Below, in pieces: positions 1 to 28,084 of a DNA stretch of 37,783 nt. This DNA comes from a virus. The notes under the pieces were generated by a model. That model did not search any database, was not told where the DNA came from, and saw nothing but the letters and a program-made list of their open reading frames with translations. Location of the stretch: positions 1-37,783 of the IMG/VR virus record IMGVR_UViG_3300033553_000843. One strand, 5' to 3'. A program made the position numbers and the translations under genes. Position 1 is the stretch's first letter. Each line of letters begins with the position of its first letter.

Positions 1-588
1 TTATGTTGGGTTTTGTCGTGAATATTCAGTAGTCATGTAATTATCTACCATCGATTTAACCGTATTTAAAATGGTTCTTAAAATACCCACTGGAGGGATT
101 GGCAAACCGTCCAGAAATTCTTTGGCAATATCAAAATCCCCATTGACCAAAGGCAATATTGCGGGTCTTAAATTTCTTCTTATAAGATCATATTGAGTTG
201 GTGTCAATTGCCCTTTTGTTTTCAGCAATCGAATCCTTTTTCTAATATCATGGTACATATCTATTCCACTCTGTTCATGTTGCATCTCTAAAGCCGAGGC
301 TTCTTCATCTTCTCGCTGATCGGTTTCAGCATCTATCTGGGATTGTGGTTTGTTCGTGATTGTATATTTCCACTTTCCATCGGTTGCGTCTAAATCTGGC
401 AATTCGCTTATTGTTTGGGTCAATGGATCATATACAGGAGGAACCACTTCTCCCCACTCATCAATTATATGCTCCGCCAAGCTCAACGTTTTATAATCGT
501 CGGTCAATCGGTCAGGCGTCGCTTTACGATACCACTCGTTCGGTATGCCTACTATTGTTTGACCATTTTTGTCTTTGTTTGCTCTCAT
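1..588 (-). CDS. hypothetical protein of the tail-fibre region
   Basis: A complete 195-aa reading frame whose TAA stop occupies the first three bases of the window. I do not recognise a family. The N-terminal half is acidic and polar, and the middle (about residues 85-125) looks helical. The C-terminal third is more hydrophobic, with a PIPPVGILRTIL stretch near residue 165. It starts 4 bases after the LamG-like gene ends and follows the tail-fibre gene, so it is probably co-transcribed with them. That position would suit a fibre-associated protein or an assembly chaperone, but this is inference from location only. No signal peptide or membrane segment is evident. Confidence 0.7.
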   Translation of the reverse strand: MRANKDKNGQTIVGIPNEWYRKATPDRLTDDYKTLSLAEHIIDEWGEVVPPVYDPLTQTISELPDLDATDGKWKYTITNKPQSQIDAETDQREDEEASALEMQHEQSGIDMYHDIRKRIRLLKTKGQLTPTQYDLIRRNLRPAILPLVNGDFDIAKEFLDGLPIPPVGILRTILNTVKSMVDNYMTTEYSRQNPT

Positions 589-592
589 ATTA

Positions 593-1345
593 TTATGGTA
601 ATAAATCGATTCCTGCTTTTTGTTGTGTTGCTAATTCCAAACATTGCTCTGGAGTCAAGCAGACATTCCACAAATATTGGTCTTGCACATAAGCCTTTGC
701 ACTATACGCTGCATGACCTGGTCTTCTACCTATTGTTAACGGTGCCCCTAAATTCTTTAGTCCACTAAAAACACCGCTAGAAGTGTAAGTACATGCTTGT
801 TCAATGCCATTATAATAAACTTTTAATCCCGTTGGCGTTCTGTCACCGTTGTATGTCCAAATGTAATGTTGCCATAGGTCAGGCTCTGGAAAACCGCTAT
901 TTGGAACAGGAGATACAGAAGTGGCTTTTATCCAATTTCCACTTGTGTTATCCCTTAATTCTATCTCTAAATATGCAGTAGCTTGAGTCCACATTGTATA
1001 TTCGTTTGGAAATACATTTGTCCCCTTATGAAAGAAATTATAAGCATTACCGTTATTATTTCTACGACACAGCAATGAACCACTAAAAGGCAAATCAACA
1101 CCAACGCCCGCAAAACTTAAATTGTCATTATCAGCTACAGTCATGGAACTAATAATAGCGGCATTGAAATAATGTATAGCTTGGCGACCTCCAAGACCCT
1201 CAACATAAGTTATATTTTCTGTTGATACAGGTGAATTTCCGTCAACACTGTCATTAGTGTTTCCATCGCCTTTCCATGCTGAAACGATGTTGGCTATTGG
1301 TAATTCAACTGCTGAAGATTTTCTAAAAAACATTTTCTTTCCCAT
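593..1345 (-). CDS. LamG/concanavalin A-like lectin-fold tail protein
   Basis: The 250-aa product resembles LamG/pentraxin-like beta sandwiches. It has an N-terminal SAWKGDGNTNDSVDGNSP stretch, typical of the first strand and loop. Further on come WQHYIWTYNG and GLKVYYNGIEQ, the usual 'W-H-V-YNG...YVNG' strands, then PLTIGRRPG and a C-terminal YLWNVCLTPEQ. Such domains bind carbohydrate or protein surfaces, and in phages they often sit on tail tips or fibres. It lies 3 bases downstream of the tail-fibre gene and is probably translated from the same message. A role in host-surface binding is inferred from fold and position; the ligand cannot be read from sequence. Confidence 0.75.
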   Translation of the reverse strand: MGKKMFFRKSSAVELPIANIVSAWKGDGNTNDSVDGNSPVSTENITYVEGLGGRQAIHYFNAAIISSMTVADNDNLSFAGVGVDLPFSGSLLCRRNNNGNAYNFFHKGTNVFPNEYTMWTQATAYLEIELRDNTSGNWIKATSVSPVPNSGFPEPDLWQHYIWTYNGDRTPTGLKVYYNGIEQACTYTSSGVFSGLKNLGAPLTIGRRPGHAAYSAKAYVQDQYLWNVCLTPEQCLELATQQKAGIDLLP

Positions 1346-1348
1346 AGC

Positions 1349-3655
1349 CTAATCCAATTGAGATACAAATCTTGTTACTTTACTATTATACGCGCAGACC
1401 GCATGAACGTTCTTTTTAGTGCCGTCCCTTGTACCGCTCTTGTTTGCGCTCCAAGCCGCACTCGGATATGTGATTGCAAAGTTGCCTGTCTCGAAAATCA
1501 ATAGTTCCTTTTCAAAACCAGCTGGAGGTAGATTGCTCTCTGTCAATGTAACCGCTCCTGTAACGGTAAGGTCGTATGCTCCTTTTGACCAATCAATATT
1601 GTACGTTCCAGATATTGAGGCTGTAACAATTTCATCATTCTTTCCCCTGTAAAGCGTATCAAAATAAGTTTTGAGGGTTGCTTTGATATTTGCCCATGAC
1701 AATTTTTTGGTAATAAAACTCGCTGCACTGTCTAAAATTCCGAACAAATCCGCATCAACTGGAGTTGTTTTAGCATCGGAAGCATTCACTTCAGAACTGA
1801 AAGAAACATCTGTATAATCTTCATGAAACCAATTGCCTGCATATACACTTGTAGAAGCATTGTCTACTATCGCTGTGATTCTGTCTTTTAAACCAAATAC
1901 AACTCCATCAACAGTCCCTGCTACACTTATCAAATAAGTATATCCTGCTTGAGCTGTTCCACCTCCAGGGAATGTACCTGATGAAGCATCCCAAGTTCCT
2001 GCTAAAACTAAAGCGCTATCTAAACCATTTAATTTATCGCGCTCAACAGAAGTAAATACCTTTTTAGTCGCGGTCTCAACCATGTTATCCATGCTGAAAG
2101 CGTCGGTGTTTTTGTTGGTTGGATCGTAAACTGATTTTAGTTGGTATAAGGAGAGGTCGATGTCAGCGCCCACTAAATCCAGATCAAACCAGACTTCCAT
2201 AACATCAGTGGCTGCAAAAACACCTCCTGTTAGATTAGTGCCAAAACTTACTATAAAATAGTTGTTCGAAGGATTGCTATATACCATCGATGTTACTTTG
2301 GCACAATAGAATTTATTGCCTGATGCCGTTTTATTGAACGCTTTTATATAAATATCCTTACCAGCATCCAAAAGGGTTTTATAGCCTGCAATGTACTTTG
2401 TGAAACTTCTGTCAAACAACATGGCTATTATATCGCCCGCTCCAGTCTGTACGTTTGCCCTACCATTTGGAACTGTTGAAGGTATAGAATCAGCCACGTT
2501 AAGGACAATAAACTGTCTGTAAGATGATGATGTGACTACCACAGCTGCTTCGGTAGGATTTAACAGCGTGTAATCTGATAAACTCGCTGTGGCAATTCCC
2601 TTATACCTATAAAAAGCGTATGTAATACCATCAATCGATACATAGTTTGGGTCTGCGGTCGCATCGGCAACAAACTGTAAAAAGTTCTCCGTTTGTTCTA
2701 CCTGAAGAGCCAACATATCTGCTATATCAGTATAGTCATTCTCCACTGGTGATGATGATAGATCGATGTCTTGGCCTGCTACATCGATATCAACATAGAC
2801 CTCCAAATAATCACCAATAGAAACTTCTAAAGTTGTGATCCCAGGGTTTATATCAACTATATAATAGGTGTCAGAACCGTCGCTGAATGAAAAATCGAGA
2901 ACGCTTGCGATTAACGTATTGGGCTGTGTTTTGTTTGCGATCGCAAAGTATAAAGGGGTGTTTGCTGCAAATATTTCAGCATATCTTTTTAGGTAATTAG
3001 TGAATGTCGCATCAAACAGTATCCCGGTTATATTGGTGCCTACATCTCTTTTTAATACAACCTGTCCAATGGTTGATGCCGTAGGCAAAGTTTCTGTAAT
3101 ATCCTTTACTTCAAATGTTCTGTACGAAGGTGGGTTCAATATAGTTACCAATTCTGAATCGGTAAGTCTTATGTAATCTGCAAGTGTTCCGACAGTCGTT
3201 CCAATATATAAATAAACGGCCCGCCCAGAATCAACTTCTGGATCATCGGACGCATCGGTGACTTCTTGTAAGAATCCTGCGGTCTGGTTGGCTTGATCGT
3301 CTAGCAGCTGACCAACGCTGTTGATGTCATCATAGACGTGTTCCCTTGGATTGGAATTGGAACCGCCAGTGTTTGTAATTATAAAATAACTTACAAGAAG
3401 GCTGATGTTACCGCCCAAATAGATGGCATTGAAAACAAAAGTGTTCTCAATAACTCCAGTAACACGGTCACCGATCTCCTGTTCAATCGATAGGTTTCCT
3501 TCCTTTTTGAGCACCTTGAGTCTGCCCGGCTCCTGAACATCCATACGTTTGGTCATCCACGTAAGCAAAGTCCTCACATTAGAGGACTTTACATTAAATG
3601 GGATTCCAGTCCGGATCCAGGAGATAATATTAGATAATATCTCTTGTATCGTCAT
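1349..3655 (-). CDS. tail fibre protein with an internal tandem repeat
   Basis: A 768-aa structural protein. Residues 1-60 form a short N-terminal region likely to attach to the tail. Two diverged copies of a roughly 195-aa unit follow, at about 106-300 and 307-502. Each contains a SYR-(T/Q)F element, a FDA/R-TFT-Y element, a YFAIANKT/YIKAFNKT element, and ends in a D-D-x-A/G-x-DIDLS motif. The C-terminal part carries ETATKKVFTSVERDKL and KKLSWANIKATLKTYFDTLY, stretches common near the ends of Bacteroidota phage and prophage fibre proteins. The gene lies between a virion protein and the LamG-like protein, consistent with a host-recognition module. Assignment as a fibre is moderately secure; the receptor is unknown. 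Confidence 0.75.
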   Translation of the reverse strand: MTIQEILSNIISWIRTGIPFNVKSSNVRTLLTWMTKRMDVQEPGRLKVLKKEGNLSIEQEIGDRVTGVIENTFVFNAIYLGGNISLLVSYFIITNTGGSNSNPREHVYDDINSVGQLLDDQANQTAGFLQEVTDASDDPEVDSGRAVYLYIGTTVGTLADYIRLTDSELVTILNPPSYRTFEVKDITETLPTASTIGQVVLKRDVGTNITGILFDATFTNYLKRYAEIFAANTPLYFAIANKTQPNTLIASVLDFSFSDGSDTYYIVDINPGITTLEVSIGDYLEVYVDIDVAGQDIDLSSSPVENDYTDIADMLALQVEQTENFLQFVADATADPNYVSIDGITYAFYRYKGIATASLSDYTLLNPTEAAVVVTSSSYRQFIVLNVADSIPSTVPNGRANVQTGAGDIIAMLFDRSFTKYIAGYKTLLDAGKDIYIKAFNKTASGNKFYCAKVTSMVYSNPSNNYFIVSFGTNLTGGVFAATDVMEVWFDLDLVGADIDLSLYQLKSVYDPTNKNTDAFSMDNMVETATKKVFTSVERDKLNGLDSALVLAGTWDASSGTFPGGGTAQAGYTYLISVAGTVDGVVFGLKDRITAIVDNASTSVYAGNWFHEDYTDVSFSSEVNASDAKTTPVDADLFGILDSAASFITKKLSWANIKATLKTYFDTLYRGKNDEIVTASISGTYNIDWSKGAYDLTVTGAVTLTESNLPPAGFEKELLIFETGNFAITYPSAAWSANKSGTRDGTKKNVHAVCAYNSKVTRFVSQLD

Positions 3656-3667
3656 CGGTAGTTTGGA

Positions 3668-4270
3668 TTAGAAGTTCACTTCTCCAGCTAATGGGAAGTT
3701 TGCTCTTGGTGGATCAACTTTGTCCTTCCAGCTGACGGTACCGATATATTTCTCGATTTCACCATCACCTCTGGCTTGGATAAGATTCAAAACCATTTGA
3801 GCCTTCATTCCGCAAATACCTCCATAGACCAATCCGGCACGTGTAACATACCACAGTTTGTAAGTGGCGTTACAGGCGGTAGACCTTGCAAATTCATAAT
3901 TGACTGCATTGGTCTCATCGATCTCCAAGTTTAGCGTATGCGTTTTTCCGGTTTGCAGATTTCGGCCACCAGATACCAATCTATTTTGGATCTCTGGAGC
4001 TGGCTTGTCACCAATGACTCGTATCATACGAATCGTATCGTCTGGAACTGGTGGTACTTCGGCTGCGGTCTGTGTGATACGCGTGGTCCACTCGGTAGCA
4101 TCCTCGACATCAGCAAAGTCAGCCCCGTCAGATTTAGCTACTGCTATCCACTCAATCTCCGATTCGTTGATCTCGGGGGAGCAATCGTCAAAATTTACCG
4201 ATGGCAAATTCTGCCCTTCGCAGTTAACGGGACATAGTACGTCCGTATCGTTGCATTGTACATTTGGCAT
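3668..4270 (-). CDS. putative virion protein, possibly major tail or tail-tip protein
   Basis: A 200-aa protein with no signal peptide and seven or more cysteines, including a DTDVLCPVNCEG stretch near the N terminus and GGICGMK near residue 150. I do not recognise a family. The gene has its own upstream promoter-like module at 4412-4441 and a roughly 140-nt leader with a conserved hairpin. The other leaders of this type precede the scaffold/capsid operon and the tape measure, so this product may be made in large amounts late in infection. It begins the unit that continues into the tail fibre. The start ATG is preceded by an A-rich AAAACGAAT context shared with other virion genes here. Major tail or tail-tip protein is inference. 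Confidence 0.65.
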   Translation of the reverse strand: MPNVQCNDTDVLCPVNCEGQNLPSVNFDDCSPEINESEIEWIAVAKSDGADFADVEDATEWTTRITQTAAEVPPVPDDTIRMIRVIGDKPAPEIQNRLVSGGRNLQTGKTHTLNLEIDETNAVNYEFARSTACNATYKLWYVTRAGLVYGGICGMKAQMVLNLIQARGDGEIEKYIGTVSWKDKVDPPRANFPLAGEVNF

Positions 4271-13764: not shown

Positions 13765-14238
13765 TTATGTATTTAGAGTTAATAAAAATGATTCGTATTT
13801 ATTCTTGGCGTCTATTTCTCGATCAAACAGTCCTAGAAATTTATTTTTACCATTAAAAAATATAGTCGCTCCCCATTTTCTATTCCTTTTCCAATAACTA
13901 ACTCCAGTAAACCTTGAGTATGAATTAAGTCTTTGTTTTGAGTGTTTGACATTTTCTCTTTGAGAAATGCGCTCTAAATTGGAAACGTGATTGTTTTCTT
14001 TATTAAAATCCTTATGGTTAGTGACCTCTCCTTTTTCTTTCAAAAAAGCATTCGAAACTAATTTATGTATGGTAAATGTTTTTCCTATTCCGTTATTATA
14101 AAGCCTTACTTTTGGATATCCATGAACAGTAAGAGATATACGTAGAATGTTGTCTCTTTTTATATTTCTAACACGGCCACAAGAAGAAACCGAATAATTT
14201 TTATAATTTTTAATCTCTTTCCAAACTTCATTTACCAT
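13765..14238 (-). CDS. free-standing HNH homing endonuclease with NUMOD4 and AP2 domains
   Basis: 157 aa in three parts. Residues 1-30 (WKEIKNYKNYSVSSCGRVRN) match NUMOD4. Residues 55-95 form an HNH_3 core with H58, N74-H75 and N83/N87 in TNHKDFNKENNHVSNLE. Residues 108-150 (SRFTGVSYWKRNRKWGATIF and on) match the AP2-type DNA-binding domain. This architecture belongs to selfish homing endonucleases that cut an intron-less or gene-less allele to copy themselves. It lies among virion genes without being part of them. The neighbouring 46-aa gene has lost its ATG, which suggests the insertion point. No group I intron structure was recognised around it. Confidence 0.85.
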   Translation of the reverse strand: MVNEVWKEIKNYKNYSVSSCGRVRNIKRDNILRISLTVHGYPKVRLYNNGIGKTFTIHKLVSNAFLKEKGEVTNHKDFNKENNHVSNLERISQRENVKHSKQRLNSYSRFTGVSYWKRNRKWGATIFFNGKNKFLGLFDREIDAKNKYESFLLTLNT

Positions 14239-19406: not shown

Positions 19407-19547
19407 TTAAAGTTGGCAATTACATTGAATACAATGGGTGTTACTTTTGCAGTTAGTTGCATTACACGTTCTACAGGTGGTTTCCCATTTCGGAAGGAAG
19501 TCTTTCACAAATTCCCGTGCTTCTCTTCTAATCTCATCTTCATTCAT
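19407..19547 (-). CDS. cysteine-rich small protein
   Basis: 46 aa. A charged N-terminal helix (MNEDEIRREAREFVKDF) is followed by six cysteines at about 25, 28, 33, 39, 42 and 44, with a histidine at 38. The spacing could bind one zinc ion. The start overlaps the stop of the upstream gene by 4 nt (ATGA), which supports translation. No family is recognised; a small zinc-binding protein of the head region is the most that can be said. Confidence 0.5.
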   Translation of the reverse strand: MNEDEIRREAREFVKDFLPKWETTCRTCNATNCKSNTHCIQCNCQL

Positions 19548-19927
19548 GACTTTTTAATTTTTATAATCCCCATCTTCTCCAACTGCTTCAATACGCTTTT
19601 ACGGTTTAGCTTCGACATATAAATGCAGTCTTTCTTTTTGATCAGCTTTCGTTTGATCGGTGCAAGTCCATCCAGAACCAACTTCTTACGACCATCCTTA
19701 TAACCGACAATTCCCAAACCTTTTGGCTTTTCTTTTACGAAAGAAGCAGCTTCAACTTCTTCAAACTCTGCTGGCTCAATCGTGTGCTCCAACAAATTCA
19801 CCTCCCAAATGGTATGACCTTTTTTCGGAAGGATTCTACCAACGAGCTGTTGCTTCTTTTCGACTTCAACTTGTCGCACGTCGACGACCTTGTCTTTTGG
19901 GATTGGTTTGGTTTGGAGTGGGTTCAT
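19544..19927 (-). CDS. hypothetical protein next to the portal gene
   Basis: 127 aa, basic, starting in the last codon of the portal gene with a 4-nt overlap. The middle contains a GLGIVGYKDGRKKLVLDGLA stretch, and the C-terminal third is strongly basic and helical (IKRKLIKKKDCIY, then RKSVLKQLEKMGIIKIKKS). This could bind DNA or an acidic partner. No recognised family; co-transcribed with the portal gene. Confidence 0.6.
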   Translation of the reverse strand: MNPLQTKPIPKDKVVDVRQVEVEKKQQLVGRILPKKGHTIWEVNLLEHTIEPAEFEEVEAASFVKEKPKGLGIVGYKDGRKKLVLDGLAPIKRKLIKKKDCIYMSKLNRKSVLKQLEKMGIIKIKKS

Positions 19928-21726
19928 ATCGATGTCAAATTCAATGATGGAATGGTAGGCGTCAGCTCCGCAATTATTGCATCCACTTCAACCTTGATAA
20001 GTTCCTTCTGTTTGGCATATGCCATATTATAAAATCCCTTGTTCGTGCCCTCGATCTCATCAAAGATGTTATCGAAATTGGCATACAGAACCTGTTTGAA
20101 CTGGGTGGCCAAGTTGTTCAGTATGATGTTCTGTATCTCGAAATCGCTCTTACCTGGGAACGGGAAATGTTTGTTCTTGATGGCCAGTTTTGCCCTTTCC
20201 TCTTGGTCATCGGAATAGATGATATCTGCAATGTCGTTGTTGATGCTCTCACGGATGTACGATGGTGCATTGCTGTCGTTGGCAGTCTTTAGTTCGGTAA
20301 GCAATTGGCCAAGTCGTTTGAGTTTGAAGTCCGACGGGAACTTGTGGTAAACCGTGGTTCCATCAAGGAATCCCATATAAAGTACTTGAAGCTTAACTAT
20401 GAACATCCAGAACTCACTGTACTTTTCGGCAAACGGATGCAATGTGTCATTTATTGAGTCAAAATCAATTTCGGCTTCGGTTGCGGTGGCAAATTGTGTC
20501 TGTACAAGGCTCTCGGAATTGTACACCATCCTAATGACCTTCTTTTCAATCTTGTCTGCGTATTTGTCAAGGAAATCCATGACATTACCGGGGAAAGGAA
20601 CATAAGCGGAGACCGCAGCCACATCCACCATATCCTCTGGGCGTTTTGGCATAGGTATCTCCTGAATGTCGGCAGCTGTCGTGTGGGTTTTCTTTCCTGT
20701 GCCCTCACATGCCAGACACTGGGAAACTCCATCACTCAAGACGCCGCCATTACATCCCTTGGCCTCACATACGGAAACATAGGAAACCTGTTTAGGGAAT
20801 GCATGAAGCGTTATGGACAATTGAAGCTCTGAACTGATCTTTACGAACTGCTCCAACAACGGCATCGCTTCGTAATGGAACGGATTCACAAACGTCTGGT
20901 CATCTGTACTGATGTCCTTGCGATATCCCACGCGCATAAGTGCCACGCGGTCGCTGTTGTGCTCATAGCTGAAAACATTGTAAGTTTTTCTGGTTTTTTC
21001 TTCTGTCCAAATGGATGTCGAGTCCTCTTTTTCCTTGATGTCTTTTGGGACTTCTTTGTACTCATACGATACATCTGGCCCGAATATAATCCAGCGGTCG
21101 GCCTGTTTGGTCTTGTCCTGCCTGTCGGTATAATCATACTTGAGCTTTACGATTACCCATTGCGTCTGATTATTGATAATCGAATAGTTTACCACATCCT
21201 CGCAGCTGTACTCGATGGGAAATGTCTGCGGTTTTTCTGTGTTTGAATCGAAAGGTTTGAAAGTTACCCATACCCAGGCGTTCGGGTCCGTGAATGTCAA
21301 TATCTTGAAACGCTCGCTCAAGAACTGGTCAACCCCATTGTTGTCGCTCTCTCCATAGAACTTCATCAACCTTTCCTCAATTTCCATGACCTTTTTGCTA
21401 TCTGTATTGTCGATGAGCTTCACCACTCTGTTGGAACGCACCACCTTGTTGAAGGGTCGCATGATCTGGGCGCAAATGGAAGGAGTGTAGTGCTTTGTGA
21501 TGTTCTTGCGCTGTTCAAAAAGGTCATCGTCCTCACGCCTAACGAACTGCCTCAAATAATCGTTCAATGGGAATTCCTCTTTGAGTTTACCGTCTTTTCC
21601 CTTTTTGTATCTAGGCTCATTCGTTATGAAGGCCTTGTATTTTAGGGATAGATTGCAGACACGGTCGTAATGCTTGTGCCTTGTGTCGTTGGCGATGGTA
21701 GATTCTAGGTGCTCCTGTAATTCCAT
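19924..21726 (-). CDS. portal protein
   Basis: 600 aa, between the terminase and the minor head protein. It has the long mixed alpha/beta wing with AWVWVTFKPFD near 150 and the portal stem/clip style of helices near 380-460 (VMDFLDKYADKIEKKVIRMV). A helical C terminus completes it. A distinctive insert at about 320-345 has C320, C325, C337 and C340 in a CxxxxC...CxxC pattern with NGG and GTG, resembling a DnaJ-type zinc element. The portal is the dodecameric ring at the head vertex through which DNA is pumped. The call rests on position, length and style; I would not name a subfamily. The P3 module lies just upstream. Confidence 0.75.
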   Translation of the reverse strand: MELQEHLESTIANDTRHKHYDRVCNLSLKYKAFITNEPRYKKGKDGKLKEEFPLNDYLRQFVRREDDDLFEQRKNITKHYTPSICAQIMRPFNKVVRSNRVVKLIDNTDSKKVMEIEERLMKFYGESDNNGVDQFLSERFKILTFTDPNAWVWVTFKPFDSNTEKPQTFPIEYSCEDVVNYSIINNQTQWVIVKLKYDYTDRQDKTKQADRWIIFGPDVSYEYKEVPKDIKEKEDSTSIWTEEKTRKTYNVFSYEHNSDRVALMRVGYRKDISTDDQTFVNPFHYEAMPLLEQFVKISSELQLSITLHAFPKQVSYVSVCEAKGCNGGVLSDGVSQCLACEGTGKKTHTTAADIQEIPMPKRPEDMVDVAAVSAYVPFPGNVMDFLDKYADKIEKKVIRMVYNSESLVQTQFATATEAEIDFDSINDTLHPFAEKYSEFWMFIVKLQVLYMGFLDGTTVYHKFPSDFKLKRLGQLLTELKTANDSNAPSYIRESINNDIADIIYSDDQEERAKLAIKNKHFPFPGKSDFEIQNIILNNLATQFKQVLYANFDNIFDEIEGTNKGFYNMAYAKQKELIKVEVDAIIAELTPTIPSLNLTSI

Positions 21727-21741
21727 GGGATGAAGTTTTCA

Positions 21742-21770
21742 CAAATGTAAAAAAAGAAACTAATAGTTTC
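21742..21770 (-). promoter_or_regulatory. promoter-like module P3 upstream of the portal gene
   Basis: On the minus strand the palindrome GAAACTATTAGTTTC (21756-21770) is followed by T-rich sequence and TACATTTG (21742-21749), spacing 6 nt. It lies right after the terminase stop codon. The hairpin plus T-run could end the terminase transcript. A start site from this box would leave a leader of only about 10 nt before the portal ATG at 21726. Confidence 0.6.
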
Positions 21771-21779
21771 GTTTTTTTG

Positions 21780-24275
21780 TCACGAATAATAATCATCAAG
21801 CAGCTCTACAATTAAATATTCAAGAGCGTCGGAGCAATTATGAACCAAAATACCGTTGGCAAAATACTCGTGCTCATCTTCGACCTGAATATCAAATACT
21901 CTTTTTTTATCTATGACTCCTGCGCAAGCTTGCTCCACATGATCTTCCGCAAGTTTTAACTTTTGCCCATTTATAGATTTCAAACTCTTTATCGCAAACA
22001 ACGCATTTTCGTTTTTCGTGGTATCGTTTCTCTTTTCTGGCAATAGCTGTTTGATGTGTGTTCTTGCATCTGTTTGAGCAGAATTTGATATTTGCAATGT
22101 GAGTGCTTTCGAACTTACTCCCACATTGTAGACACTCAAGTTTTTTTGGGTCGTGGAAAAAAGTGTTTTGAGCGTGTTCTTTATGCCATTCAATACCATC
22201 GTCAGAACTGTGCCACTCCATAGCTTTTGGTTGTGCAAGTTCCAGAAGATATTTGGTTGCTTGCTTAATCCTCTCTTTTGAATAGTGTTTTTTTGAATGT
22301 TGTTTTGGTGTAAGGGCTTCAAGGTTTTCAATCGTATTGTTTGATTTATCCTCGTCTTTGTGATGGATATGAACACCTTTAGGAATTTTACCATTGTTGA
22401 GATACCAAACATATCTGTGAGCAGATGTCTTGATTTTTTTACCGTCGATTTTACACCATCCTTTGTAATACAATTCTCCTGTATGGAGGATGAAATTGAC
22501 ACCGTTGATAATCTGTGAAGGGTTTGGTTTTTCCATGAGATATTATTTTCATCTAATATACAAATAATATCCTCTTGTATCACATCGCAGACCTTTATAA
22601 ATCCTTTATTTTCAGTAAATATCTTATGATCTGGAGTGCATGTGATTTCATGACCGTTCAAGCTGTATGTTTTGACTTCTCGAATACCGTTGTCAAAGAC
22701 ATTTGTCACTTTTTTAAATCCTTTTCTTGTCAAAACAAGTTCACCTATTTCTATTTCATCGATACGCTTATTTCCGTTGATGGTTGTGATTAGTGTTTCT
22801 CCAACAAAGCAATGGCCTAGCTTCTCATAGACCACTCCAGTCTCTGGATCCTTGTCCTTTTCCTTTAGCTTTCCATCCAGTCCCTCTTTGAGCCATTGCA
22901 TATCTGAAATGAGATATTCACAACTTTCATCGATGATCAGAACAACTGTATATTCTTCGCCATTATAATCGATCTTAAGTTTGCGCTCCAGTATCTTATC
23001 TACAAAATCCCTACGGTTCAGAACGTTCTTGTTCTTGCGTGGTACCTTATCCGATGACCTCGAAATATAATCCGCCAACATTTCCCGAACCTTGTCAAAC
23101 TGGGTGAAATCACCGCTCCCTGCCTGACGATAATCCCCTGAAGCATCCCCATAGAAGTAAAGCATTGGATCGTCATGCTCATAATCGCCCAAAAACCTAC
23201 GGCAAAGCGCCTCTGTCGAGTTCGATGGGCTTGAAAGGCAGTATTCCCTGAATATCCGTATCTGGAATTCTTTGACATCATCCACATACTCGACTTGTGC
23301 GCACTCCAAGGTCATGTAAGGTTTGGAGTTGAAATCGAAAGTCAGGTGTATCGGTATTGATTTGTTGTATGTTACTTTTTCGACGTGAATAAGCTCACTG
23401 AAATTTCTATAGAACGAATCCCCTGTCCGTGCAAACGGATAACCGTAAACGAATTTCAATGCTTCACCTTCTGACAGTTGGGCTATTCGATTATCGATAT
23501 AACCTTTTGAGAGATTATGGGCGTTGTGGAAAGTAGAAGAGATGGTAATCGACTGGCTGTCGTTTTCCATGTGGAAATACGTCTTTGGGTTGGTCACTTT
23601 TTTCAGTATCTCCTCCTGAAAGTCTTTCAAGTGAAACATATCGGTCAGCCATTTGACCACTCCTATCGATGGTGAAGTGTTTATGATGCAAGGGTTCCAG
23701 GCGATGTAATCTTCTGGGTTTTCAACGTCATCGATGTAATCAATCTGCAAGGTGTCCTTGTGGTAAACGAATCCAGGCTGTGACAGACGTGCAAGGATTA
23801 CGGCTTTGAGCGCCTCTTCTTTCGTGTCCTTCGTTTCATCGAGCAAGGCCCATCCGATGTTCTTACCATCGTGTGCGATGTAGTTGACCAGTGAGGCGGT
23901 GAATATGATGCCTCCATTCTCAAAACTTATGATGCCGTGGTAATTATCAAACTTCTCAAGCTTTGTAAAGTGTTCCGGTGGTTGGAGGCCATAGACATAG
24001 TTGCCTCTTGGATTGCCTTTTTTATCGTACTGGGTCATTCCGTAGATGGATTTCCATACTTTCTTTATTTCCCTCATGGTGGTCTGGGTGAGCTGCATGT
24101 GGGTGTTTGCTGCGATCATTCCAGCTATCTTTGGAGCGTTGAGGACGTACATGCCAGACTGGAAGCCCATGAGATATGTTTTACCTGACCTTTGCCCTGC
24201 CATGTTGAGCGTCAACTGTTTTCGGCTGGTGAGCGTCTTTATCTGTGGGGATGATAGTTCTATTTCGGTTGGCAT
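21780..24275 (-). CDS. terL: terminase large subunit, interrupted by an intein
   Basis: 831 codons, of which 506 are terminase and 325 intein. The ATPase has Walker A GQRSGKT (27-33) and Walker B ALLDE (143-147). The RuvC-like nuclease has D314 (LTFDFN), D377 (YGDASGDY) and D816 (CSDALEY), the three acidic positions of the family. The intein occupies residues 489-813 and splits the third nuclease motif two residues before D816. The splice junctions read ...EKLGH/CFVGE and VHN/CSDAL. The protein cuts concatemeric DNA and drives packaging with the portal; without splicing the nuclease should be inactive. The terminase small subunit lies 11 nt upstream. Confidence 0.93.
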   Translation of the reverse strand: MPTEIELSSPQIKTLTSRKQLTLNMAGQRSGKTYLMGFQSGMYVLNAPKIAGMIAANTHMQLTQTTMREIKKVWKSIYGMTQYDKKGNPRGNYVYGLQPPEHFTKLEKFDNYHGIISFENGGIIFTASLVNYIAHDGKNIGWALLDETKDTKEEALKAVILARLSQPGFVYHKDTLQIDYIDDVENPEDYIAWNPCIINTSPSIGVVKWLTDMFHLKDFQEEILKKVTNPKTYFHMENDSQSITISSTFHNAHNLSKGYIDNRIAQLSEGEALKFVYGYPFARTGDSFYRNFSELIHVEKVTYNKSIPIHLTFDFNSKPYMTLECAQVEYVDDVKEFQIRIFREYCLSSPSNSTEALCRRFLGDYEHDDPMLYFYGDASGDYRQAGSGDFTQFDKVREMLADYISRSSDKVPRKNKNVLNRRDFVDKILERKLKIDYNGEEYTVVLIIDESCEYLISDMQWLKEGLDGKLKEKDKDPETGVVYEKLGHCFVGETLITTINGNKRIDEIEIGELVLTRKGFKKVTNVFDNGIREVKTYSLNGHEITCTPDHKIFTENKGFIKVCDVIQEDIICILDENNISWKNQTLHRLSTVSISSSIQENCITKDGVKSTVKKSRHLLTDMFGISTMVKFLKVFISITKTRINQTIRLKTLKPLHQNNIQKNTIQKRGLSKQPNIFWNLHNQKLWSGTVLTMVLNGIKNTLKTLFSTTQKNLSVYNVGVSSKALTLQISNSAQTDARTHIKQLLPEKRNDTTKNENALFAIKSLKSINGQKLKLAEDHVEQACAGVIDKKRVFDIQVEDEHEYFANGILVHNCSDALEYLIVELLDDYYS
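21837..22811 (-). other. intein inside terminase large subunit
   Basis: Protein splicing motifs are intact. Block A starts C489-FVGETLITT. Block B is GHEITCTPDHKIFT, with the T-x-x-H type residues. Block F/G is VFDIQVEDEHEYFANG then ILVHN813, and the +1 residue is C814. The splicing domains amount to about 91 residues at the N side (489-579) and 27 at the C side (787-813), the size of a mini-intein. The roughly 210 codons between them do not look like a normal protein in this frame. In the -1 frame the same DNA encodes an HNH endonuclease (21907-22536). Confidence 0.92.
21907..22536 (-). CDS. HNH endonuclease with two zinc fingers, nested out of frame in the intein
   Basis: 209 aa encoded in the -1 frame of the intein: its ATG begins at the third base of terminase codon 580. 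The HNH core is KGVHIHHKDEDKSNNTIENL (53-72), with H58-H59, N66/N67 and N71, then H80 and H84. Two Cys4 zinc fingers follow: C135, C138, C153, C157 and C178, C181, C196, C200. Such HNH plus zinc-ribbon proteins are homing endonucleases. The stop codon falls just where the intein C-terminal splicing domain begins. It therefore occupies exactly the endonuclease slot of a full-length intein, but in another frame. It could be translated from its own ATG or after a -1 frameshift from the intein frame. Confidence 0.85.
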   Translation of the reverse strand: MEKPNPSQIINGVNFILHTGELYYKGWCKIDGKKIKTSAHRYVWYLNNGKIPKGVHIHHKDEDKSNNTIENLEALTPKQHSKKHYSKERIKQATKYLLELAQPKAMEWHSSDDGIEWHKEHAQNTFFHDPKKLECLQCGSKFESTHIANIKFCSNRCKNTHQTAIARKEKRYHEKRKCVVCDKEFEIYKWAKVKTCGRSCGASLRRSHR

Positions 24276-24286
24276 GGGTTATGCCT

Positions 24287-24691
24287 TTAGGTTTTGCGTT
24301 CTGTGATTATCATTTCGACCTTGCCCATTGAGAGTGGCTTGTCTTGATTTCCTGAAATCTCTAAAAGTTGAGGAGCTTTAACCCCGATGATGTCGGCAAT
24401 CTCTTTTAAAATGTTTTTACACTCTTTAAAATCCTCAATGTCATAGCTTTGTTGATAAAGATGATAGTATTGTGAAATTATCTCACTACGCTTGATGTCT
24501 ATCTCTACCTGCTGGTCTTTAGTGAAGATTTCACGAGCCTTAACGATGTATTTATCAATCATCCTGTCAGAAATCTTGTATTTTGCACAATATTGAATGA
24601 TTTGCTTTCTTTGAAATCCTTGTAAGAGCAGTCCATAGACGAAGGTCGTCCGTTTTTGCATTTCTGAACTATCTGACTTAAATTTTGCCAT
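24287..24691 (-). CDS. terS: terminase small subunit (putative)
   Basis: 134 aa, 11 nt upstream of the large subunit. The N-terminal half looks like a helix-turn-helix (TFVYGLLLQGFQRKQIIQYC then KISDRMIDKYIVKAREIF), typical of small terminase subunits that recognise the packaging site. The C-terminal half is helical (ECKNILKEIADIIGVKAPQL) and ends in a short acidic/basic tail. Size and neighbour support the role. The subunit would form a ring on the phage pac or cos site and load the large subunit. Family recognition is moderate. Confidence 0.75.
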   Translation of the reverse strand: MAKFKSDSSEMQKRTTFVYGLLLQGFQRKQIIQYCAKYKISDRMIDKYIVKAREIFTKDQQVEIDIKRSEIISQYYHLYQQSYDIEDFKECKNILKEIADIIGVKAPQLLEISGNQDKPLSMGKVEMIITERKT

Positions 24692-24729
24692 TTTTTAGAA
24701 CGGAACTCCAGTGAAATTTGCTCTTTGTC

Positions 24730-25470
24730 TCAATCTTCGCATTCCTGCGGCTGTTGTGCCTCTATTGTTGTTGATGTTGGAATATCCTTCGCTACCACTT
24801 GCCATAATTCTTTAGATTTAATTGATTTGTTTATTGTTTTGTATCTCTCTAAAATATTTTTGAAATAGAACTGATTAAAGTCATAGATTTCTTTTGAATC
24901 TTCAATCACAAACTGCTCCAGGTTGTCGGAGCTTCTTAAATTAGCGCTTCCATGCATCACAATGAACTTACCACCTTCGGTTTCCATTTGATAGATTTTG
25001 GTATGCGTTCTACATACGGCCAATTGAAACCTATCTTCGTGATCTAGTTTTTCATAGGCGTATTTGATTAGGTTTGATATTTCGTGAGAGTAGAAATAAT
25101 CACTTACAATCAAATTCAGTTTTTCGATATACCCAGCATCTATCAAGTTTTTTAAACTATCAACGTTATCCTGATTCATGGACAAAGTTGAAAGGGTAAT
25201 CTCTTTTACCAGAATGTTATGATTCACGATAAAAGCCTCAATAAAATCGCCGAATATAAAACTACCATCAACCACAACAAACACTCGGTCAAGTGCTTTA
25301 AAATCTAAATCTTTTGCGAGTTTCTCTGCATTTTTATACTTCAGGCGTTTGTAAGGGATTGAATTGTCTTTTTTTGGCTTGATGTATCTGGATGTACTTC
25401 TTGAGCCTTTGAGCTTAAAGTCTGAATGGTTTTTATTAAAATTATTTGCTATTTCGTTAAAGTCCCTCAT
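24730..25470 (-). CDS. phospholipase D-family (HKD) protein, probable nuclease
   Basis: 246 aa with one HKD-type half site. H156-x-K158 in RTHTKIYQ is followed by GSANLRSSDN (174-183) and E185, the pattern seen in PLD-family nucleases. A strand-rich region (VFVVVDGSFIFGDFIEAF near 63-80) precedes it, as in other PLD-like proteins. With only one half site the protein is expected to dimerise, as the Nuc-type endonucleases do. It is the first gene after P4 and precedes the terminase small subunit by 38 nt, so a role in DNA processing or packaging is plausible. A defence or anti-defence role cannot be excluded. Confidence 0.75.
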   Translation of the reverse strand: MRDFNEIANNFNKNHSDFKLKGSRSTSRYIKPKKDNSIPYKRLKYKNAEKLAKDLDFKALDRVFVVVDGSFIFGDFIEAFIVNHNILVKEITLSTLSMNQDNVDSLKNLIDAGYIEKLNLIVSDYFYSHEISNLIKYAYEKLDHEDRFQLAVCRTHTKIYQMETEGGKFIVMHGSANLRSSDNLEQFVIEDSKEIYDFNQFYFKNILERYKTINKSIKSKELWQVVAKDIPTSTTIEAQQPQECED

Positions 25471-25504: not shown

Positions 25505-25598
25505 ATTTTTGTTTTAAAATAGCCCTTAAATCGTTCGAAAATTGATTGTAGGTCAAAGCCGTATATCTCAAAACTGTCCGTCCAAGTTTTTGCTTCAT
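25503..25598 (-). CDS. short reading frame coupled to the integrase
   Basis: 31 codons (MKQKLGRTVLRYTALTYNQF... to LRAILKQK) whose ATG overlaps the recombinase stop codon in ATGA, as most coupled genes here do. The stop lies within the P4 palindrome. It is basic and helical. It may be a real small protein or an accident of the overlap; no homologue is recognised. Confidence 0.35.
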   Translation of the reverse strand: MKQKLGRTVLRYTALTYNQFSNDLRAILKQK

Positions 25599-26425
25599 AA
25601 GTTTATATTGCCCAATGGTGATTGAATCTGACTGATTCTGTTATGCGAAATATGGGTGTACATCATAGTGGTCTTTACGGTTTTATGTCCGGCCAATAGC
25701 TGTATCAAATTGATGTCCACTCCAGCCTCGACCATATGAGTAAATGAGTTGTGCCTCATTAAATGTGTGTAAACCCTTTTACTGATTCCTGCTTTTAATG
25801 CCAACTGTTTCATAACTTGATTCACACTTGTGGATGAATATTGGTCTGAAAACTGACCATCCAGAACATAGGTCTCTGTCTCGTATTTTCGGTAGTATTT
25901 TTCTAGTAGCTTAACCAGTTCTGGCGCCAATGGAACCTGTCTGTCTTTTTTGCCCTTACCCTGAATGATGTTTATGACTTTTCTTGACCTATCAATGTGT
26001 GACCATTTAAGATTTATGAGTTCTGATACTCTCATGCCGGTTGCGTAAAGTAAAGCCAGGATGGTTTTGTGTTTTATATTCTCACAGACATCAAACATTC
26101 TCTGAACTTCATCCTGTGAAAGAACGATAGGAAGTTTTTTGTCCGATTTTGGATAAGGTATCTTTTGTATTTTGGAAGGCATTCCAACGGTTATTTTATA
26201 AAAGCTGTTGATCGCGCACAATCTATGTTTCCTTGAGTTTATGGTCTTTGCCTCCAGAAGCCAATCCTTGATCTTGTCGTTAGGAATGGATTTTGGCTCT
26301 ACCTCATTACTGAAATGAGTTAGAAACGACTTCACTTGACTTTTATAGTTCTCGATTGTTGCTTTAGAGCTATAAACCAGTTGTAGGTCTCTCGAATAGT
26401 TGTCTAGATGTTTTCGAATATTCAT
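25595..26425 (-). CDS. tyrosine recombinase, Xer-like
   Basis: 276 aa with a SAM-like N-terminal core-binding domain (about 1-85) and a catalytic domain carrying the tyrosine-recombinase residues. R132 lies in ATGMRVSEL, a lysine in GKGKKDR (about 157-160), H221 and R224 in HLMRHNSFTH, H247 in LLAGHKTVKTT, and the nucleophile Y256 in MMYTH. Length and sequence style match XerC/D-like enzymes. The extra segment typical of integron integrases between the two halves of the catalytic site is not obvious. It may integrate the phage. It also lies directly beside the cassette-like array (first core repeat at 26475-26485, 49 nt upstream), so it may act on those repeats instead or in addition. Confidence 0.9.
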   Translation of the reverse strand: MNIRKHLDNYSRDLQLVYSSKATIENYKSQVKSFLTHFSNEVEPKSIPNDKIKDWLLEAKTINSRKHRLCAINSFYKITVGMPSKIQKIPYPKSDKKLPIVLSQDEVQRMFDVCENIKHKTILALLYATGMRVSELINLKWSHIDRSRKVINIIQGKGKKDRQVPLAPELVKLLEKYYRKYETETYVLDGQFSDQYSSTSVNQVMKQLALKAGISKRVYTHLMRHNSFTHMVEAGVDINLIQLLAGHKTVKTTMMYTHISHNRISQIQSPLGNINL

Positions 26426-26474
26426 ATTGAGTGTATTGATTTTATTGGTTGTTTAAAGTGTTTTGTACATATAA

Positions 26475-26684
26475 GTGTTAGCAACAATGCTTACATTTCG
26501 TACTCAATCCTAACTTTTCGCACACTACCATCGGCAAGCAAAGCATTTTTTCTATGTTCTAGTAGGTCATTTGCTACTGTCCAAGTGTCCAAGCTATAAT
26601 CAGAGTATTGTACTGAATGCTTTGCTTTCCTGCGCTGGGCTTCATTCAATATTTCTTCCATACTTGTCGCACAGTTGCTAACAC
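26475..26684. repeat. matched inverted repeats flanking unit 1 (cassette-like)
   Basis: GTGTTAGCAAC at 26475-26485 and its exact inverse GTTGCTAACAC at 26674-26684 flank a 56-codon segment with an internal ATG at 26661. The outer flanks are also related to the repeats further right (TATAxxACGTGTTA type on the minus strand). Neighbouring units have different core sequences, but each unit's two ends match each other. Confidence 0.6.
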
Positions 26685-26826
26685 GTGGTATAAATAATTG
26701 CTCCGTTTTGTACTTCTCAAGCATATTCGCTAATTTTAAGAAATCTAAAGGGCTTATTTTAAACTGTTCGTCCTTTGGCAGAGATAATATCCAATCTGCT
26801 ATCTTATTTAATTTTTCTACTTCCAT
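26491..26826 (-). CDS. hypothetical protein, frame runs through a cassette-like repeat
   Basis: 111 aa. Residues 1-43 form a helical leader (MEVEKLNKIADWILSLPKDE and following). Residues 44-55 (about LFIPRVSNCATS) are the translation of the inverted-repeat arm at 26674-26684 and its flanks. Residues 56-111 begin at a second ATG (MEEILNEAQRRKAKHS) and could be the original gene of the unit. No family is recognised. Either the whole frame is one protein whose linker was supplied by the repeat, or only the 56-aa part (26491-26661) is translated. Confidence 0.5.
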   Translation of the reverse strand: MEVEKLNKIADWILSLPKDEQFKISPLDFLKLANMLEKYKTEQLFIPRVSNCATSMEEILNEAQRRKAKHSVQYSDYSLDTWTVANDLLEHRKNALLADGSVRKVRIEYEM

Positions 26827-26884
26827 TTTATAATATTTTTAGTTAATTAATACGCAACTATTCATACCACATCTACGTTACCTA
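26674..26884. repeat. attC-like paired arms between units 1 and 2
   Basis: The arms ACGTGGTATAAATAATTGC (from 26683) and the inverse of GCAACTATTCATACCACAT (26855-26873) pair at 16 of 19 positions. Next to the core boxes the two strands have unequal unpaired spacers. That gives an R box, unpaired spacer, L box and variable loop, the plan of integron attC sites. The loop holds the N-terminal 43 codons of the 111-aa frame. The canonical RYYYAAC/GTTRRRY boxes are matched only in AAC/GTT. Confidence 0.5.
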
Positions 26885-28084
26885 CAAGTGCTATGTTCCT
26901 GTTTCACTCAAAGGTTCGTGCTTCAATTCCGTAATAACATTTTTTTCTTCCCTCGCTTTTTTAAAAGGTAAATATTGGAAGATGTGTTCTATAATTGGCA
27001 AAGTCCAACCATCACCCAAAAGTGAAGCTGCTTTGTTTCTACTCAATATATCGCAATGGTTATCGGGAAAGCCTTGTAATCTGCAAAGCTCAATCTTGTT
27101 TAACATTCTCACTTGATTGTCTTTTAACACATATAGAGGTTCATTTCCTTGCAATAAACAAGGTGCTTTTCCTTTTGTTACTCGTCCTCGTCTTGTTGTG
27201 CTACTTGGAAATGATAGGTTTAAACAATCTTCTTCAGTTAAAATATCATAGCCTTTTACTGTATTGGTTTTAACTCTGACTTCATCTTCAACCAAATAAA
27301 CAATAGTATTAAAATCCTTAACATATCGTTTTTTTAAACTTTCTTGGCTTGTAGTCATTCTACTTTCACTTTCTAAAATACAATTTGCTTTTTCTTTATC
27401 AGTCCAACCGTCAGTAATAATATCAATCAACTTTATATTTAAGTCTTTAGGTTCTGTAATATCTGTAACTAAATCCCCAAACATTCCCTCTTGTTTTGTT
27501 TTTGCATTAGTCCAATAATATCTATCTCTTAATTGTGCAGTAAGCAAACTACTATTAAACCTTACAGGATAAACGCCCATTGCCCTGCTCATTATACCAA
27601 TATCTTCTTTTGGTGCAGATCCAACGTTTTCTTGGAAGAAAATTACATTTGGGTTTAATTTTTTAATATGATTGTATATTTCAATAAATTTCCAAAACAA
27701 ACCGCTATTACTTCCGTTAATTCCTTTACGCTTTCCTGCAATACTTAAATCTTTACAAGGCGAGCCACTTAAAAGCAAATCAATACTTTTCCAATCAATA
27801 TCCCATTCACGCCAATTATTTACATCGCCTAATTGTATTGTTTCCGGATAGTGATATTGTGTCAATTCTATTGCGTAAGGTTTCAGCTCGCTACTGTAAT
27901 AATTATTTACTTTAATTCCTACGTTATCAAGTGCCGTATGTCCAGTACTCATTCCGTTAAAAAGAGAAAGCACATTAATTCCTTGGCTTCCTTTGTCAGC
28001 CATTTGCCCTCGCTCAAAAATGTTATTACTATGTTCGTTCATAATTCAAAATTTTGTTCTTTAAAACCGCACCAGATAGGTAAC
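26877..28084. repeat. matched inverted repeats flanking unit 2 (methyltransferase)
   Basis: GTTACCTA at 26877-26884 and TAGGTAAC at 28077-28084 bound the methyltransferase gene, which starts 35 nt inside one and stops 7 nt inside the other. Flanking bases extend the similarity to other repeats in the block. Confidence 0.6.
26891..28042 (-). CDS. DNA (cytosine-5) methyltransferase
   Basis: 383 aa with the ordered motifs of C5 methyltransferases. Motif I is NVLSLFNGMSTGHTAL (23-38), motif IV is GSPCKDLS with catalytic C96, motif VI is QENVGS (137-142), motif VIII is QLRDRYYW (170-177), motif IX-like is RMLNKIELCRLQGFPDN (312-328) and motif X is GDGWTLPIIEHIF (343-355). No cognate restriction enzyme is adjacent, so it is an orphan enzyme. 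The usual roles are protecting phage DNA from host restriction or marking it. The target between motifs VIII and IX (about 180-310) cannot be predicted. It is the main cargo of the cassette-like array. An alternative start at M14 is possible. Confidence 0.93.
   Translation of the reverse strand: MNEHSNNIFERGQMADKGSQGINVLSLFNGMSTGHTALDNVGIKVNNYYSSELKPYAIELTQYHYPETIQLGDVNNWREWDIDWKSIDLLLSGSPCKDLSIAGKRKGINGSNSGLFWKFIEIYNHIKKLNPNVIFFQENVGSAPKEDIGIMSRAMGVYPVRFNSSLLTAQLRDRYYWTNAKTKQEGMFGDLVTDITEPKDLNIKLIDIITDGWTDKEKANCILESESRMTTSQESLKKRYVKDFNTIVYLVEDEVRVKTNTVKGYDILTEEDCLNLSFPSSTTRRGRVTKGKAPCLLQGNEPLYVLKDNQVRMLNKIELCRLQGFPDNHCDILSRNKAASLLGDGWTLPIIEHIFQYLPFKKAREEKNVITELKHEPLSETGT

Follow-up and report, generated by a model that had tools for sequence, protein, structure and literature searches.

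An HNH endonuclease gene nested out of frame in the intein of a phage terminase, and its relatives in other phages and an archaeal plasmid

The window analysed here is the whole 37,783-nucleotide viral record IMGVR_UViG_3300033553_000843. On its minus strand, as are all features of this locus, a single stop-free frame of 831 aa (21780..24275) encodes the terminase TerL, with matches to Terminase_6N and Intein_splicing. Alignment with the intein-less viral terminases L002 and L003 delimits an N-extein of codons 1-488 (22812..24275) and a C-extein of 18 aa (CSDALEYL...) plus the stop (21780..21836). Between them, splice motifs and the empty sites of these relatives define an intein of 325 aa, from C489 to N813 (21837..22811), with Cys as the +1 residue. 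The motifs of a class 1 intein are present: C1, T59 and H62 of the block B TxxH, H324-N325 and C+1. Across 40 aligned inteins C1, H62 and N325 are invariant, and T59 is found in at least 90%. At the intein site, the L002 terminase (77% identical over the whole protein) reads EKLGH-TSDALEYL without interruption, and that of L003 (68% identical) reads EKIGH-TSDAMEYL. As both lack intein and HNH gene alike at GH-TSDA, they represent empty alleles, and the insertion is a precise one in a conserved motif. A sequence-only reading of this DNA had proposed a 325-residue TerL intein; all its coordinates hold, and the related terminases read straight through the intein point. In a set of 60 genomes, consisting of the window's own and 59 relatives, no similar terminase besides that of the window was found.

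Residues 92-301 of the intein are nonsense in the intein frame and encode a complete HNH protein in another frame. This gene (21907..22536) specifies 209 aa, has its own ATG, at the third base of codon 580, and its own TAA, and is placed such that the intein frame is the HNH frame +1. Its product matches HNH_3 (Pfam, 9.7e-17) and the HNH endonuclease family PHROG 15471 (1.8e-33), and Pfam thus detects both Hint/Intein_splicing and HNH_3 in the window. The protein contains both the HNH motif and the zinc-finger DNA-binding part, with H56, H58, H59, D61, N66, N67, H80, H84 and Cys 135/138/153/157 invariant in aligned kin. The invariance of the four Cys residues fits the earlier description of two Cys4 zinc fingers, of which the second is absent from several HNH kin. 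The complete out-of-frame gene and the position of its start codon are likewise as first read. Since the HNH gene is out of the intein frame, the locus is not a large intein with an in-frame endonuclease, and since TerL is a single ORF, it is not a fractured gene with a split intein.

The two readings of the overlapped DNA differ sharply in their predicted folds. AlphaFold models the HNH reading with a mean pLDDT of 94.2, whereas the intein reading reaches about 95 in its two splicing halves only and falls to 38-69 in the HNH-overlapping blocks between them. Both halves adopt the Hint fold: the N half covers residues ~1-91 (22539..22811; pLDDT 86-98 over 1-90) and the C half residues ~301-325 (21837..21911; pLDDT 96-97). 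This fold resembles the NrdJ-1 intein (8ubs; VIA Z 17.6, rmsd 1.7 over 126 residues) and the gp41-1 intein (6riz; VIA Z 17.5). Among solved structures, the HNH protein is matched best by the homing enzyme I-HmuI (1u3e), whether sequences or structures are compared. In other inteins, the slot between the splicing halves holds an in-frame endonuclease domain (PMC6801210). The same DNA is predicted to fold as HNH and to be disordered as intein; therefore, the HNH occupies the inteins' usual endonuclease slot.

The nested layout is real and widespread, not a one-off. Searching with the intein-frame protein by tblastn recovers the TerL genes of a gut phage, Acinetobacter phage Highwayman, Tetrasphaera phage TJE1 and a Rhodobacteraceae phage, each with an HNH ORF 32-38% identical to that of the window lying out of frame in an open intein. 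HNH profile searches of IMG/VR, GTDB genomes, phages and plasmids, followed by an automatic locus classifier, brought the nested loci to 64, or 46 after removal of near-duplicates, plus L109. Their carriers are phages of Bacteroidota, Acinetobacter, Rhodobacteraceae and Tetrasphaera, together with an archaeal case, a plasmid of Halobacterium sp. GSL-19 in which the locus adjoins a portal gene. Sixty-two loci are in phase +1 (the intein frame being the HNH frame +1), with both intein halves in one ORF, and two, L055 and L109, are in phase +2; the assignment of L109 was completed by hand, outside the 63 single-ORF loci of the automatic classifier. In L055, the terminase ORF (522-3698) appears to hold two inteins, an earlier one and a C-terminal one with the phase +2 HNH. 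The HNH is in frame in none of the HNH loci that lie in an intein. Intein_splicing is matched in all 46 de-duplicated single-ORF loci, the junctions of which are canonical (C1, then HN or SN, then C or S), and all 46 inteins share a site in the C-terminal region of the terminase, mostly before a D-A-x-R-Y-like motif. A further 21 loci have the HNH between the halves of a split intein, and about 22 HNH loci lack an intein. The TerL genes of Vibrio phages 1.238.B and 1.245.O (L028, L033) and Lactobacillus phage CL2 (L022) are apparently of the split kind.

This recurrence bears on the concern that compensating indels, arising in sequencing or assembly, mask an ordinary in-frame HNH intein. The window does come from a fragmented bacterial genome assembly of 200 contigs. 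However, the same layout, nearly always in the same phase, is found in the isolates TJE1, Highwayman and Halobacterium GSL-19 and in many metagenomes from many sources, and the HNH genes are complete, with their own starts and stops. We therefore give almost no credence to such an error, and the compensating frameshifts that the sequence-only reading had listed among its models are excluded.

To obtain a chance expectation, synonymous codons were drawn anew for every HNH protein, with the TerL extein of the same locus supplying the codon usage. This predicts 156.5 intein-frame stops over 41 near-non-redundant loci, and none is observed (product of single-locus probabilities < 1e-88). For the window alone, the same procedure predicts 6.9 stops, with a probability of no stop of 0.0005 (2000 draws). 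In a more conservative test, which permutes the synonymous codons already present in the gene, P is 0.14 for the window and below 0.05 at many other loci. The weaker value arises because this test retains codon choices already shaped by the constraint. The original claim that a stop-free frame is improbable by chance is thus upheld, with the 41-locus comparison being decisive. Homologues outside the nested arrangement behave as controls: in the same frame, split homologues have 6.8 stops against 6.4 in permuted sequences, and free homologues 6.0 against 6.1. Additionally, the open frame tracks the phase of the intein: L055 and L109, both in phase +2, have no stop in their +2 frame, where 6-8 would be expected, but 8 and 6 stops in their +1 frame. 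In a free HNH gene the count is about 6 for phase +1 as against about 17 for phase +2, a difference that would explain why phase +1 is so much the commoner.

It is thus highly improbable that chance alone accounts for an open frame across a recent insertion, or that the element is a decaying relic, even though the own-codon permutation for the window would by itself allow it: none of the 156.5 expected stops occurs in the nested loci, whereas the split and free controls sit at the chance number. The proposal of overlapping genes, in which selection keeps the intein frame open, finds support in dozens of relatives and in these controls. Where it had been worded as a recent insertion with a selected open frame, the selected insertion stands, but the arrangement cannot be called recent, being widespread and scattered over the HNH tree. 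One locus, L077 (2768-3589), has an HNH gene with a perfect Shine-Dalgarno sequence and no detectable intein, and its +1 frame is open for 274 aa (permutation P = 0.012); this is possibly a remnant or an unrecognised host frame.

Substitution patterns tell which of the two frames is conserved as protein. In the overlapped stretch, differences between close kin at HNH codon positions 1/2/3 number 49/45/105, 40/28/86 and 8/5/22. Read in the intein frame, these changes are nearly all non-synonymous, with 127 such codon changes and 12 synonymous ones in the first pair. Within the splicing halves of these inteins, most of the variation falls at position 3 of the intein codons, the exception being the longer N part of L076/L078. 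The excess at position 3 of the HNH frame indicates that the HNH is conserved as protein and the intein-frame loop is held stop-free; comparing synonymous and non-synonymous change in both frames, as the first reading had advised, thus shows substitutions to follow the HNH codons. Residue conservation in the intein-frame loop, sought as a sign of function, was not found. The nested loop is slightly more hydrophilic (-0.38) than the same frame in split (-0.19) and free (-0.16) homologues (Mann-Whitney P 0.003); weak selection for solubility of the loop is possible, but no more than that.

Just upstream of the window's HNH start (22537..22560), the sequence is A/T-rich, with an HNH-frame TGA and TAA close by, and no Shine-Dalgarno sequence is found there. 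Across 47 loci, a Shine-Dalgarno match of at least 5 bases precedes the HNH start in 11, against 5.0 expected, a modest excess, and L016 and L070 have perfect sites. Every HNH gene ends in a stop of its own, which lies at a rather uniform distance from the end of the intein, with 43 and 55 nt the most frequent values. Several of these stops seem to arise at the junction of an intein codon that ends in T with one that starts with GA.

An alternative route to expression, also raised by the sequence-only reading, is a programmed frameshift that fuses the N half of the intein to the HNH, yielding a fusion endonuclease. A slippery-like heptamer in the right phase does occur at 19 of 46 loci, but these heptamers lie at no conserved place and the window has none. 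Moreover, the HNH frame of the window is closed by a TAA six bases before the ATG, an HNH-frame stop falls inside the N domain in 44 of the 46 loci, and the HNH genes have starts of their own, some with Shine-Dalgarno sequences. We consider a frameshift product very unlikely. Removal of the HNH stretch as an RNA intron would be in keeping with the frequently intron-borne state of HNH enzymes of this kind, such as I-HmuI. However, no group I or II intron is matched by Rfam in positions 19500-25000 of the window or in 20 kin loci, there is almost no sequence beyond the HNH gene to house a ribozyme, and an open frame would be needless for an intron, so that this explanation, too, has scarcely any plausibility.

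HK97-type HNH proteins that adjoin terminase genes have been proposed to work in packaging with TerL, and the HNH could accordingly be a packaging helper working with TerL instead of a homing enzyme, its position in the intein merely coupling its expression to that of TerL. Besides the report that the HK97 HNH protein acts with terminase (PMC10448857), what speaks for this is the company kept by free-standing kin of the window's HNH, which adjoin terminase genes in seven of eight annotated phages (PAE1, FBPa53, SN1, EauM-23, BP10, Poludnitsa and PhiSTP1), Gut-P1 being the one in which they do not. Nevertheless, the site is empty of both intein and HNH in the close relatives L002 and L003, the solved protein that matches best is a homing enzyme, I-HmuI, and the HNH sits in the slot where inteins hold homing endonucleases and has a scattered distribution. 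A role as packaging helper is on these grounds improbable. We consider it very probable that an autonomous HNH homing gene occupies the endonuclease slot of the TerL intein as an overlapping gene, with splicing, HNH expression and cutting the parts of this reading that we infer. The position of free-standing kin next to terminase genes speaks for this reading, too.

If the HNH is such a homing gene, the ribosome translating TerL would read through it in the intein frame, so that a non-conserved and probably unstructured loop of ~210 aa would connect the halves of an ordinary Hint splicing domain, and the intein would then excise itself together with the loop. Translation of the HNH would begin independently, at the internal start of its gene, and the enzyme would cut intein-less terL alleles at H|(S/T)DALxY, leading to the copying of intein and HNH gene together. 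The choice of frame may be explained by the stops: in frame, a gene with its own stop would truncate the intein, while out of frame, purging about 6 stops would suffice (about 17 in the other phase). Loss of this purging would yield a split intein with an HNH gene between its halves. In origin, the HNH was likely a free-standing homing gene that targeted terL and came to lie out of frame in terL mini-inteins.

On the weakly supported HNH tree, nested, split and free forms interleave, with 18 label changes in all, and the order of change among the three cannot be read from it. Its starred branches force at least four changes for the nested form and three each for the free and split forms. The two phase +2 cases lie apart on the tree, and so the nested arrangement probably arose or changed more than once. 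It is likely that overlapping intein/HNH genes, with an autonomous HNH gene out of frame in the endonuclease slot of a cis-splicing intein, form a class of mobile elements that is stable, is widespread among viruses of bacteria and archaea, and has evolved repeatedly. Selection on the intein frame in the overlap would act only to keep out stops, and the class would be an intermediate form linking free-standing endonucleases with in-frame and with split inteins.

Several known systems share features with this arrangement. The fractured genes of Dassa et al. 2009 are reportedly split inteins whose halves flank a free-standing endonuclease gene. They resemble the present case in having an independent endonuclease ORF at the break, with gp41-1 and the split intein NrdJ-1 among the closest solved inteins, and our 21 split loci, such as Vibrio phage 1.238.B and Lactobacillus phage CL2, appear to be of that form. 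However, the host gene is there broken into separate ORFs, while the TerL of the window is one ORF and would splice in cis. Canonical large inteins (PI-SceI and others) have the same Hint fold and the same slot between N and C halves, but they encode the endonuclease in the intein frame, as a portion of the intein protein, whereas that of the window is a separate protein in another frame. I-HmuI, from a group I intron, is likewise an HNH homing endonuclease and the only solved sequence relative found, yet its carrier is a ribozyme and not an intein. A close cousin is the ShiLan domain of mycobacteriophages (Arsenault, Gosselin, Gogarten 2025), a gene for a zinc-finger homing HNH of ~195 aa (PMC11855218). 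ShiLan, too, lies out of frame inside a phage gene that is kept open through it, and is sporadically distributed (PMC11855218). Its host is, however, a DNA methylase with no detectable splicing domain, and the insert is thought to be retained in the protein (PMC11855218), whereas the window's HNH occupies the endonuclease slot of a canonical intein, its host gene is an essential one for packaging, and the insert would be lost from the protein on splicing. The description of ShiLan comes from mycobacteriophages, while the TerL-intein HNH spans several bacterial phyla and an archaeon.

In the literature searched, we found no intein with a nested out-of-frame endonuclease, although the actinobacteriophage inteins of 'non-canonical architecture' (Gosselin et al. 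2025) may include cases. TJE1 is an actinophage. The initial statement that no standard form of this arrangement had been described thus holds for that literature, with the exception of ShiLan, which lacks splicing domains (PMC11855218). On present evidence, the arrangement is a new variant of the homing intein: homing inteins are taken to hold their endonuclease as an in-frame domain, while members of this HNH family that lie in inteins were found either out of frame or between the halves of a split one, and in no other position. With free-standing homing genes, inteins and split inteins all represented in one gene family, it offers a route for their interconversion. As an example of gene overlap it is unusually clean, in that one frame is conserved as protein and the other only stop-free, with both non-overlapping forms available as natural controls. 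Since isolates exist, splicing and expression are directly testable.

Annotation overlooks the nested HNH. The public records of Highwayman, TJE1, LS06-2018-MD07 and Halobacterium GSL-19 (L005, L006, L007 and L113) give the terminase or a Hint protein only, for TJE1 and Highwayman just the large terminase, and the HNH ORFs between the intein halves of Vibrio phages 1.238.B and 1.245.O are unannotated.

Elsewhere in the window, a second, unrelated homing-endonuclease-like gene (13765-14238, minus strand; NUMOD4, 2.9e-10) stands alone among structural genes. A prophage is suggested by two genes that lie upstream of those for packaging (25595-28042, minus strand) and encode a phage-type tyrosine recombinase and a C5 cytosine methylase.
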